NCBI RefSeq assembly: GCF_014646055.1
Contig: NZ_BMMS01000007.1
Location: 124,001-188,000, forward strand
DNA length: 64,000 nucleotides
Reading direction: 5' to 3'
Source of the DNA: Wenjunlia tyrosinilytica
Lineage (GTDB): Bacteria; Actinomycetota; Actinomycetes; Streptomycetales; Streptomycetaceae
Each line of letters begins with the position of its first letter. Position 1 is the stretch's first letter. The position numbers and the translations under genes were made by a program. Shown one piece after another: positions 34,110 through 37,685 of the stretch. A model generated the notes under the pieces. That model was not told the origin of the DNA. It worked only from the letters and a program-made list of their open reading frames with translations, and did not search any database.

Positions 34110-34394
34110 CTACTGCATGAGCGCCACGGCGAGGGCCCTACGGGCACGCAGTGAGGCTCGTTCGGCCCTGCGCTGCAGCCTGCGGGCGCGCAGGAGGCGA
34201 AGGGCCTTGCGTTCTGATTCGGCCTCGCGGAGGCGTTGCTCCATTTGGGCTCTGGCCAAGGCTTCTGGCATGAGTTGCATTTCAAGGCTCCGGTTCTGGT
34301 GCGGTGCGTGGTCGAGCGCGGCGGATCGGCCGTCGAGGGTTGTAGTCATCGGGACCTGCTTGCTGTGTGTGGGGGTGGGGACGTGCGTGTTCAT
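34110..34394 (-). CDS. Small basic coiled-coil protein coupled to wblC
   Basis: 94 residues. After a 35-residue polar N-terminus, the rest is predicted as one long, highly Arg/Glu/Ala-rich helix (ALARAQMEQRLREAESERKA, then RRLQRRAERASLRARRALAV). The ATG overlaps the wblC TGA as ATGA, so it is made whenever wblC is translated. An internal ATG at 34349 is possible. It matches no family I know. It could bind nucleic acid or ribosomes given its charge (inference only). Confidence 0.72.
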   Translation of the reverse strand: MNTHVPTPTHSKQVPMTTTLDGRSAALDHAPHQNRSLEMQLMPEALARAQMEQRLREAESERKALRLLRARRLQRRAERASLRARRALAVALMQ

Positions 34395-34678
34395 GCGATC
34401 GCCGCGTCCTTGCGCGGACGCCCACGCGGCCGCTTCCGGGGAACGACGACGCCCTGGACGAAGAGCTCTCCGCCCCAGACTCCCCACGGCTCACGCCGGT
34501 CCTTCGCGCCCTGCAGGCAGAGCTCACGGACGGGGCAGGTCTGGCAGAGCGACTTGGCGTACTCGACGTCCGCCGGGGTCTCCGCGAAGAAGACCTCGGG
34601 GTCGTACGAGCGGCACGGGACGGCCACGCCGAGGCGCTCGATCTCGTCGAACGCCGGGGAGAGGTCGGTCAGCTGCAT
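34391..34678 (-). CDS. wblC: WhiB7-type antibiotic-resistance regulator WblC
   Basis: 95 residues. Iron-sulfur cysteines C22, C45, C48 and C54, the EPWGVWGGE turn that binds the principal sigma factor, and a C-terminal AT-hook RGRPRK, which distinguishes WhiB7/WblC from other Wbl proteins. WblC activates intrinsic resistance genes when ribosomes are inhibited. GGAGG precedes the ATG at 34678; an in-frame GTG at 34753 would add a Pro-rich 25-residue extension but lacks a ribosome site. The gene follows a long leader with an attenuator. Confidence 0.93.
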   Translation of the reverse strand: MQLTDLSPAFDEIERLGVAVPCRSYDPEVFFAETPADVEYAKSLCQTCPVRELCLQGAKDRREPWGVWGGELFVQGVVVPRKRPRGRPRKDAAIA

Positions 34679-34840
34679 AAGGGATACCTCCGAGGGCCCT
34701 GGAGGGGGGATCGCTACGGACTGAGTCGGGGACGGGGAGTGCGGCGGGGTCACCGGTTGCACGGCTTGTTGTTCCTCGTCTGGTCGGTCCGACCGGTCGG
34801 CCGGATCTGGGTCAGTACCGGGGTTGCTCAGCTCTTCCGG

Positions 34841-34887
34841 CAAAACAGAAGGGCCGCGGATCCCGGTTGGGGTTCCGCGGCCCTGGA
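34841..34887 (-). promoter_or_regulatory. Attenuator terminator in the wblC leader
   Basis: On the minus strand, GGGCCGCGGA pairs with TCCGCGGCCC (10 bp, then a mismatch and three more pairs, loop CAACC), directly followed by TTCTGTTTTG: an intrinsic terminator about 160 bases before the wblC start. Its 5' arm (34887-34875) can instead pair with 34942-34923 inside the upstream ORF: CCCTGGA with TCCAGGG and CCGCGG with CCGCGG around a seven-base bulge. This would be an antiterminator. Confidence 0.82.
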
Positions 34888-34908
34888 AGGTGCCGACCTG
34901 ATGCGATA

Positions 34909-35310
34909 TCAGGCTGGATCTCTCCAGGGTTCGAGCCCGCGGAAGGCCCTCGTGGTCTGCTGCGTCTTCGTGGCGACATTGGCGCTGCCTGCGAAAGGCA
35001 CACCGCTCTCGATCCACTTCGCCTGGGCGCCGGCACCATTGACCGCCGCGGCATAGGCATGCGCCACTGCCGCTGCTACCGCCGGTGCCTGCATCGGTCG
35101 CTCTCCGCCCTCGCGCATGTCCGGGGCGAACAGACCGGTGCCACGCAGGCGGGAGGCTTCGAGCACGGAAGTGCCGAGGCTGCGAGCCGACAGTCCGGTG
35201 CCCCGCGAATCGCCAAGGGAGACCTTGGTGAAGTGCGGAGCGATGGACAGCTCGCGCTCGGAGCAGGGGGCGGCAACGGCCAGGCTGCTGAATTTCACGA
35301 TGCTGGTCAC
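34909..35310 (-). CDS. Leader ORF (uORF) upstream of wblC, 133 aa
   Basis: GTG at 35310 has an excellent AGGAGG site at eight bases. The frame has Streptomyces-like third positions and ends at a TGA that sits inside a small hairpin (CCTGAT/ATCAGG, 34912-34896), 22 bases before the attenuator. The peptide (opening MTSIVKFSSLAVAAP) matches no family I know. WhiB7/wblC genes are known to be controlled by a translated uORF, so this is the likely sensor: ribosomes that finish it cover the antiterminator arm. It may also encode a functional protein. Confidence 0.65.
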   Translation of the reverse strand: MTSIVKFSSLAVAAPCSERELSIAPHFTKVSLGDSRGTGLSARSLGTSVLEASRLRGTGLFAPDMREGGERPMQAPAVAAAVAHAYAAAVNGAGAQAKWIESGVPFAGSANVATKTQQTTRAFRGLEPWRDPA

Positions 35311-35445
35311 GGGGTCCGCCTCCTCTCGGCGCTTCGGGAACCCAGGTATCGGGCTCGGGGTTTGCATCCACTGATGAAGTGGACGCCGTGCAAGTACATC
35401 ACGGTTGCGTTGACTCCCGGAAGAGTCGCTGCGACGTTGCTCGGA

Positions 35446-35485
35446 AGGCTATGGGGATTGTCGTAGCGGGCGCAAACTATTTTTT
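35446..35485 (-). promoter_or_regulatory. Candidate wblC promoter with AT-rich upstream element
   Basis: Minus strand: the tract AAAAAATAGT (35485-35476) directly abuts TTGCGC (35475-35470, -35-like), followed by 18 bases and TAGCCT (35451-35446, -10-like). An AT tract next to the -35 element is the signature of WhiB7-type autoregulated promoters. The transcript would have a leader of about 760 bases. Confidence 0.6.
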
Positions 35486-35513
35486 CGACGAATCTTCGCC
35501 AGTCCGCGCAAGA

Positions 35514-37685
35514 TTACCCGGGCGTGGCACCGAAGGGCTCCTGACCTGCGCAGAGTTCGAGAACGTCGGCTCCGAAGCGGTCGAGTTTGGCTCGGCCGAC
35601 ACCCGGGATCGCTGTCAGTTCGGCGACAGACGCCGGAGAGCTCTCCGCAATCGCCAGCAGCGTCGCGTCCGTGAAGACGCAGTAGGCCGGCACACCCTGC
35701 TCCTTGGCGCGCTCGCCGCGCCAGTCCCGCAGCCGCTCGTAGAGCCCCTCGTCGAGATCCGAGGGGCAGTCCTCGCAGCGTCGCAGCTTGCGCTCGACCG
35801 CCTCGGACAGCACCCGGCCGCAGACGCGGCACTTGACCGGGCCCCGCCTGCGGCTCGCGCCGCCCGTGCTCTCGGCGGCGCGCCCGCTCCCGGCGGCCCG
35901 GCCCGCCCCTCGCGCCGCCGAGCCGGGCCGCAGACCCTCGAGGAACCGGGTCGGCCTGCGGCCGGCCCTGCCGCCGGGCGAGCGGGCCAGCGCCCAGGAC
36001 AGGGACAGATGCAGCCGCGCTCTGGTGACGCCGACGTAGAGCAGCCGACGCTCCTCCTCGACCTGCTCGGGCGTCCTGGCGTAGGTGATGGGCACCATGC
36101 CCTCGGTGAGCCCGACGAGGAACACCGCGTCCCACTCCAGGCCCTTCGCCGCGTGCAGCGAGGCCAGGGTGACGCCCTCGACGGTCGGCGCGTGCTGGGC
36201 GCTCGCCCGCTCGTCCAGCTCGGCCACGAAGTCCGCCAGCGTGGCCTCCTGCCGACCCGCCGAGAACTCCTCGGCGAGCCGCACCAGCGCGGCCAGGGAC
36301 TCCCAGCGGTCGCGCACCGCGCCCGAGCCCGAGGGGGCCCGAGCGGTCCAACCTCTCGTGCCGAGCACGGCACGGACCTGCTCGGGGACACCGACGGCGT
36401 CGTCGAGCGCCCGGTCGGCGCCTCCCGCGCGGGCCGCCCCTCGCAGCAGCAGCCCCGCCTCGCGCACCTCGGGCCGCTCGAAGAACCGCTCCGCCCCGCG
36501 CAGCTGATAGGCGATGCCGAGGTCGGCGAGCGCCTGCTCGTAGACCTCGGACTGGCCGTTGGTACGGAACAGCACCGCGATCTCGCTGGCCCGCACTCCG
36601 GCGTCGAGGAGGGCCTTGACGCGGCCGGCGGTGCCCTCGGCCTCCGTCGGTTCGTCGGAGTACTCGGTGTACACGGGGTCGGGGCCCGCTTCGCGCTGCG
36701 AGATCAGCTCCAGCCGGTGCTGGGCGGCCCGGCCGCCGCTGCCCGGGGCGGCCGACTGGGCCAGCAGCCCATTGGCCAGGTGCACCACCTGCGGCGTCGA
36801 GCGGTAGTCGCGCACGAGCTTGACCACCGTGGCGTCCGGGTGCCGCGTCCTGAAGTTCAGCAGGAAGTCGGGGGTGGCACCGGTGAAGGAGTAGATGGTC
36901 TGTCCCGCGTCGCCCACGACGCAGACGCTCTCCCGGCCACCGAGCCACAGGTCGAGCAGGCGCTGCTGGAGCGGGCTGACGTCCTGGTACTCGTCGACCA
37001 CGAAGTGCTGATACTGCGAGCGGACCTGCTCGGCGACGTCCGCGCGCTCCTCGAGCACCCCCACGGTCAGCAGGAGCACATCCTCGAAGTCGATCACCGC
37101 CCGATCGCGCTTGAGCTCCTCGTAGGCGGCGTAGATCTTGGCGATCTCGGCGGGGTCGCGCGGGGCCTCGCGGCCGGCCTTGGCGACGGCCGCCGGGTAG
37201 TCCTCGGGGACGGTCTGGGTGACCTTGGACCACTCGATCTCACCGGTGGCGTCCCGCAACTCGTTCCGATCCAGGCGGACACGGCAGCGTGCCGCCGCCT
37301 CGGCCACGAGCTGGACCTTCCGCTCGACCAGGCGCGGCAGCTCCCCGCCGACGGCCCTCGGCCAGAAGTACTGGAGCTGGCGCAGGGCCGCGCTGTGGAA
37401 GGTCCGCGCCTGCACTCCGCCCGCGCCCAGCTGTCTGAGCCTGCCCCGCATCTCGCCCGCGGCGCGGGCGGTGAAGGTGACGGCGAGGACACTGCCGGGC
37501 TGGAGGATCCCCGCACGCACGCCGTAGGCGATGCGGTGCGTGATGGCCCTCGTCTTGCCCGTGCCGGCTCCCGCCAGGACGCAGACGGGCCCGTGCAGGG
37601 CCGTGGCGACCTCGCGCTGCTCGGGGTCGAGCCCTTCGAGCACCGCGTCGGCGGTGGGTGGGGGGAACAGCGGTGGTGCGGTCAC
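35514..37685 (-). CDS. uvrD2: UvrD2-type superfamily 1 helicase with tetracysteine and HRDC domains
   Basis: 723 residues. The N-terminal motor has Walker A AGAGTGKTRAITHRIA (about 38-50), DEYQDVSP (motif II), GDAGQTIYSFTGA (motif III), LHAAKGLEWDAVFLVG (motif V) and VGVTRARLHLSLS (motif VI). A CRVC...CEDC zinc module and a C-terminal HRDC-like domain ending GVGRAKLDRFGADVLELC complete the mycobacterial UvrD2 architecture. The GTG at 37685 gives MTAPPLF. The gene diverges from the mycoredoxin gene. It acts in DNA repair by unwinding 3'-tailed duplexes. Confidence 0.94.
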   Translation of the reverse strand: MTAPPLFPPPTADAVLEGLDPEQREVATALHGPVCVLAGAGTGKTRAITHRIAYGVRAGILQPGSVLAVTFTARAAGEMRGRLRQLGAGGVQARTFHSAALRQLQYFWPRAVGGELPRLVERKVQLVAEAAARCRVRLDRNELRDATGEIEWSKVTQTVPEDYPAAVAKAGREAPRDPAEIAKIYAAYEELKRDRAVIDFEDVLLLTVGVLEERADVAEQVRSQYQHFVVDEYQDVSPLQQRLLDLWLGGRESVCVVGDAGQTIYSFTGATPDFLLNFRTRHPDATVVKLVRDYRSTPQVVHLANGLLAQSAAPGSGGRAAQHRLELISQREAGPDPVYTEYSDEPTEAEGTAGRVKALLDAGVRASEIAVLFRTNGQSEVYEQALADLGIAYQLRGAERFFERPEVREAGLLLRGAARAGGADRALDDAVGVPEQVRAVLGTRGWTARAPSGSGAVRDRWESLAALVRLAEEFSAGRQEATLADFVAELDERASAQHAPTVEGVTLASLHAAKGLEWDAVFLVGLTEGMVPITYARTPEQVEEERRLLYVGVTRARLHLSLSWALARSPGGRAGRRPTRFLEGLRPGSAARGAGRAAGSGRAAESTGGASRRRGPVKCRVCGRVLSEAVERKLRRCEDCPSDLDEGLYERLRDWRGERAKEQGVPAYCVFTDATLLAIAESSPASVAELTAIPGVGRAKLDRFGADVLELCAGQEPFGATPG

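Follow-up and report, generated by a model that had tools for sequence, protein, structure and literature searches.

The leader of wblC in Wenjunlia tyrosinilytica is almost certainly the wblC (whiB7) attenuator, an orthologue of a known system, and its antiterminator co-evolves across actinomycetes. Within the window, i.e. the whole 64-kb stretch of DNA analysed here, an upstream open reading frame (uORF) led by a Shine-Dalgarno (SD) sequence stops 28 nt ahead of a Rho-independent terminator that lies between the uORF and wblC, and the end of the uORF can pair with the 5’ arm of this terminator in a mutually exclusive antiterminator. The mechanism is already known, having been published for Streptomyces and mycobacteria: the uORF attenuator of S. 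coelicolor wblC was reported by Lee, Lee & Roe (2022, Mol Microbiol 117:179; its logic is summarised in PMC11550727, PMC12421871, PMC9618640 and PMC13393426), and a uORF and terminator of mycobacterial whiB7 were seen by Dinan et al. (2014; PMC4128351). WblC/WhiB7 drives the intrinsic resistance of actinomycetes to many ribosome-targeting drugs. The base-level pairing and its class-wide co-evolution presented here offer concrete bases to test, and material for an RNA family model that Rfam lacks; with Rfam 15, no gathering-level match was found in the leader, and none at E<=1 in 34600-35520.

The gene downstream of the leader is of the WhiB7 type, its product combining a WhiB domain (PF02467, 1.6e-15) with a C-terminal AT-hook (AT_hook, 0.004), and its nearest paralogue within the same genome is only 44% identical. 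Upstream of the leader a UvrD-like helicase gene ends at 35514. The source genome belongs to the Streptomycetaceae, like Streptomyces-type genomes, and has a genus label of its own. From sequence match and conservation only, a putative autoregulated promoter was assigned, in which an AAAAAT box (35484-35479) stands 3 nt before a -35 element TTGCGC (35475-35470), followed after an 18-bp spacer by a -10 element TAGCCT (35451-35446). S. coelicolor WblC promoters have this same layout (PMC7157823), and the promoter is near-invariant across an alignment of 16 Streptomycetaceae; transcription would start near 35439. Between promoter and uORF, GTGNTGTACTT (about 35404-35391, minus strand) is conserved past the expected start in the Streptomycetaceae alignment. 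Furthermore, the wblC frame is open through the whole leader (35371-34391, minus strand; 326 codons from a GTG), so that automatic annotation could wrongly stretch wblC across its own leader. The features are listed in Table 1.

Table 1. Features of the wblC leader, in coordinates of the window.
Feature	Position	Strand	Basis or remark
WblC-dependent type promoter (putative)	35446..35484	-	conservation and layout match only
Shine-Dalgarno AGGAGG of uORF	35319..35324	-	sequence, Streptomycetaceae alignment
uORF, 133 codons, GTG 35310 to TGA 34911-34909	34909..35310	-	sequence, relatives
Internal motif copy 1, GGCACCGGACTGTC, pause-like	35189..35202	-	motif comparison
Internal motif copy 2, GGCACCGGTCTGTT, pause-like	35129..35142	-	motif comparison
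Antiterminator lower stem 5’ arm TTCCGCGG	34937..34944	-	duplex, swap and fold tests
Antiterminator mid stem 5’ arm CCCTGGAG	34922..34929	-	duplex, fold, covariation and swap tests
Local hairpin CTGGA-GAGA-TCCAG, competitor of antiterminator	34913..34926	-	short-transcript folds
Antiterminator apical hairpin, CCTGAT/ATCAGG core, over uORF stop codon	34897..34914	-	folds, covariation
Antiterminator 3’ arms CTTCCAGGG (34889-34881) and CCGCGGAA (34880-34873), common to terminator 5’ arm	34873..34889	-	
Intrinsic terminator hairpin GGGCCGCGGAACCCCAACCGGGATCCGCGGCCC	34851..34883	-	fold, scan, relatives
T tract TTCTGTTTTG	34841..34850	-	sequence
wblC/whiB7, 95 aa, WhiB domain and AT-hook	34391..34678	-	GGAGG at 34691-34687

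The original prediction had placed a terminator hairpin, followed by a T tract, at exactly the hairpin coordinates of Table 1. The hairpin has a calculated energy of -28.0 kcal/mol, with TTCTGTTTTG directly 3’ of it, and it is the sole minus-strand case in the window when the search pattern is a 9-bp stem with 6 or more T in the 9 nt behind it, a scan that yields 0-1 cases per strand on random sequence. The segment 34960-34841 folds with a z of -3.68, none of 200 shuffles being equally stable. A simple consensus scan for promoters and terminators detected neither the promoter nor the terminator of the leader, as both depart from its simple patterns; for the terminator, an internal A.A mismatch is probably responsible.

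For comparison, 80 Streptomycetaceae loci were taken from a scan of species genomes, and a further 80 loci represent other families within the order and class; of these, 153, the window included, gave a usable terminator anchor. The uORF-terminator layout recurs in 153/160 of these wblC/whiB7 loci. Rule-based assignment of start codons in the relatives has surely misplaced a few wblC starts (L013, L038 and L076), which leaves the terminator-anchored tests unaffected. The terminator is almost identical in sequence throughout the Streptomycetaceae, with the uORF stop 24-31 nt upstream, and in the class-wide set its core GGCCGCGG is mostly kept, with the stop 21-35 nt upstream with one exception. 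The well-initiated ORF of 133 codons that had been predicted is indeed present, and is the longest uORF among 79 Streptomycetaceae loci; lengths among the relatives reach 172 codons. When defined strictly (strict SD, at least 50 codons, and a stop 18-36 nt ahead of the terminator), a uORF is found in 38/47 genus representatives, against 0.2% in dinucleotide shuffles.

The region 34942-34923, proposed as the partner of the terminator 5’ arm, forms a duplex with it of -29.3 kcal/mol, compared to -20.5 kcal/mol when dinucleotides are shuffled (z about -3, p 0.005-0.01), although only about 30% of loci reach significance when tested singly in this way. The CCCTGGA/TCCAGGG pairing that had been read from this region is real, but it is not the full extent of the antiterminator, which comprises a lower, a mid and an apical stem in all. 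TTCCGCGG pairs with CCGCGGAA to form the lower stem, a 7-nt bulge separates this from the mid stem of CCCTGGAG and CTTCCAGGG, and the CCTGAT/ATCAGG hairpin on top contains the stop codon of the uORF. In folds of the growing transcript, the antiterminator has the lowest energy as long as the 3’ end lies at 34880-34856, and the terminator hairpin appears only from 3’ end 34852, when its 3’ arm is complete. Masking 34926-34897 as a presumed ribosome footprint makes the terminator form in the calculation. In the equilibrium fold of the full-length leader, the terminator state is more stable than the antiterminator. Antitermination must therefore be kinetic, a matter of timing.

What would happen on a leader that carries no ribosome at all? 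The original prediction counted absent ribosomes as permissive. However, the antiterminator arm can also be drawn into the local hairpin at 34926-34913, and at equilibrium the terminator wins, so that readthrough without ribosomes is less than certain. Classical leader attenuators terminate by default when no ribosome is present, and by analogy the local hairpin might form first on an untranslated leader and lead to default termination, with readthrough only if a ribosome is stalled upstream of 34944. Short transcripts do form this hairpin in the folds before the antiterminator partner exists, and it is kept in most Streptomycetaceae. It is not kept outside that family, however, and the calculated antiterminator displaces it once 34880 is reached. 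Furthermore, reviews state that disrupted uORF translation yields the antiterminator (PMC11550727). We regard termination by default as an unlikely, albeit serious, version of the mechanism.

Further evidence for the antiterminator comes from its co-evolution. In a swap test over 47 genera, native combinations of uORF end and terminator arm reach a mean of -27.9 kcal/mol compared to -25.2 kcal/mol for permuted ones, with 0/20,000 permutations attaining the native value, while an upstream control segment gave p=0.44. The signal holds for each arm separately (p=0.005 for the mid arm alone, 0/10,000 for the lower arm alone). In a fixed alignment of 45 genera, pairing in the terminator, mid stem and apical stem exceeds that of all 1000 row shuffles. 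For the apical stem over the stop codon this amounts to 0.749 paired versus 0.687 shuffled (0/1000), and among covarying terminator pairs, none of 1000 row shuffles reaches the native level, changes on both sides numbering 7 versus 0.6. The lower stem alone has no covariation signal in the fixed alignment (345/1000 shuffles), probably due to insertions between the blocks, as the gap-tolerant test does show one. Paired changes also stand out in single lineages: in genus g9 (family f6), which we take to be of mycobacterial type, the terminator CCGCGG has become CCACGG and its partner at the uORF end TCCGTGG, a clean double change. In S. philanthi (L033), TTCCG/CGGAA is replaced by TCTCG/CGAAA together with a matching terminator change, leaving one mismatch in the changed stem and another in the mid stem.

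These data bear on whether the uORF could simply be a small-protein gene with a plain terminator, wblC being expressed through occasional readthrough or from another promoter without any antiterminator. In favour of this are the intrinsic nature of the terminator and the length of the uORF, which at up to 172 codons is unusual for a leader peptide. The encoded protein, however, is poorly conserved except over the RNA elements and has no match in Pfam or NCBIfam, the terminator arm co-evolves with the uORF end, and a mechanism has been published for S. coelicolor, so we consider this reading highly improbable. Slighter still is the chance of Rho-dependent control, in which Rho sites would lie bare on a uORF without ribosomes and the hairpin would count for little: to judge by the title of D’Halluin et al. 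(2023; cited in PMC13236596), Rho and translated uORFs reportedly shape premature termination in mycobacteria, but stalled translation would then lower wblC rather than raise it, and compensatory changes have preserved the intrinsic terminator.

We therefore return to attenuation by translation of the uORF. Transcription would proceed from the WblC-type autoregulated promoter near 35439, and ribosomes would load at the AGGAGG of the uORF. A ribosome at the stop codon would cover about 34926-34897 and prevent the antiterminator from closing its mid and apical stems, upon which the terminator at 34883-34851 would form and RNA polymerase would halt about 160 nt short of wblC. If ribosomes are held further upstream on the uORF by translation inhibitors or a lack of amino acids, the freed uORF end could grab the terminator 5’ arm as it emerges, before the terminator 3’ arm is made. 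Polymerase would then continue into wblC, and WblC would feed back on its own promoter. Drug-dependent readthrough as such is taken from the literature on S. coelicolor and mycobacteria, and W. tyrosinilytica presumably behaves in the same way. The central proposal of the original prediction, that completion of the uORF favours termination and stalling favours wblC transcription, fits the published mechanism, the conservation, the co-evolution and the folding order.

Several other features of the uORF deserve mention. Its penultimate Pro is kept in 78/79 Streptomycetaceae and in 43/47 genera, being absent in genus g9, and could slow release at the stop codon. A Trp at -5 is often kept as well (WSDPA*, WSPPV*), and both residues persist at loci whose apical stem has another sequence; in the window, this conserved C-terminus corresponds to 34923-34909. 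An alanine-rich stretch at 35082-35026 (minus strand; 11/19 codons) could sense alanine supply, an idea that derives from the title of Poulton et al. (2024), which reportedly links alanine starvation and whiB7 in mycobacteria. In their N-terminal part, the Streptomyces uORFs conserve AAAATGACCGATCGCTCGGTCGTC, a block with rare codons that can fold as a hairpin GACCGA-tcgc-TCGGTC, a hairpin missing from the window, and a second fixed rare-codon block, GAGCGACCG..GCA (with CGA in 78/79 loci), could pair with it; alignment columns 26-33 and 126-131 cover both blocks.

When conservation of the uORF is followed by codon, blocks with fixed rare third bases appear, the strongest being GGC ACC GGT CTG TCC. 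Class-wide this motif takes the form GG[G/C]A[C/T]NNNTNTG[T/C]C and is mostly situated 60-140 nt past the start codon, in phase 0. A score of at least 9/10 is reached in 76/79 Streptomycetaceae loci, and a full match (10/10 positions) is found in 14 genus representatives outside that family, each at p<=0.01 against codon shuffles, values that are somewhat optimistic because the consensus had been derived from these very sequences. Carriers include most of the Streptomycetaceae loci (L001-L080), as well as L138, L152, L162, L168, L174-L176, L181, L184, L185, L189, L191, L213 and L216, while genus g9 lacks the motif and several other families have it weakly or not at all. The two copies in the window may contribute to the greater length of its uORF. 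This nucleotide-level motif of the wblC uORF has probably gone unreported.

So what could this motif be for? Its third bases are fixed where first or second ones vary, which suggests a constraint on the nucleic acid. A role of the peptide (QGTGLS) is disfavoured, since in codon 4 the third-base T, and in codon 5 the TG, are invariant and the rest of both codons varies. Pairing with the apical 3’ arm (CAGGYCGGCRCC, up to 11/12 complementary) was rejected for want of co-evolution (p=0.24), as was a local GGAC/GUCC hairpin within the motif, which is lost where the motif reads GCCC. Co-evolution tests of the motif against the terminator, the SD region and other parts of the leader were equally negative (p=0.53, p=0.96 and p=0.09-0.83, respectively). 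All of the 10/10 motif matches fit a register of G-10, Y-1 and G+1. Besides these, the consensus of elemental pauses has G-11 and T-3, with which fixed positions of the motif coincide as well, and copy 1 of the window has an A at -3. G-10, Y-1 and G+1 belong to the elemental RNA polymerase pause consensus as given in PMC12288461, and regulated pausing in drug-responsive leaders is known for tlrB and vmlR. Judging from the sequence register, the motif might thus be a pause that keeps polymerase and ribosome in step. One tentative scenario, which we would not favour over its absence, is that a conserved pause holds polymerase in the uORF while the leading ribosome closes the gap, which would bring a ribosome to the stop in time for the decision, and that this, perhaps with Pro-slowed release, forms a timing device that many actinomycete families share and mycobacteria have lost. 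Should the motif be a pause site, it would help to explain how polymerase and ribosome stay in step on uORFs that, at up to about 170 codons, are far longer than classical leader peptides.

Among known systems, the ARE-ABCF attenuators (vmlR, PMC9226507; are5sc and tiaA, PMC12421871) share with the wblC leader a uORF, a terminator/antiterminator pair and a translation-inhibitor signal, and the vmlR leader additionally uses RNA polymerase pausing. They differ in their short uORFs (are5sc and tiaA), in responding to only some drug classes and in their target genes; as such, they are alike in working but not homologous. Closer is the mycobacterial whiB7 leader (PMC4128351, PMC9618640, PMC13236596 and PMC13393426), which likewise has an SD-led uORF with a terminator just downstream, where transcription stops until induction. 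The mycobacterial-type leaders of genus g9 also have the antiterminator partner within the uORF end; in contrast, their uORFs measure 53-74 codons without the penultimate Pro, they carry CCACGG for CCGCGG, and the pause-like motif is missing from the nine g9 genomes covered. Compared to the other Streptomycetaceae loci, the window stands out by the length of its uORF (133 codons, n=79) and its two internal motif copies. With the S. coelicolor wblC attenuator, as described in PMC11550727 and PMC12421871, it has in common the orthologous gene, the promoter type, the uORF, the Rho-independent terminator, the antiterminator and the drug- or starvation-responsive logic, and while the genus label differs, both belong to the same family.
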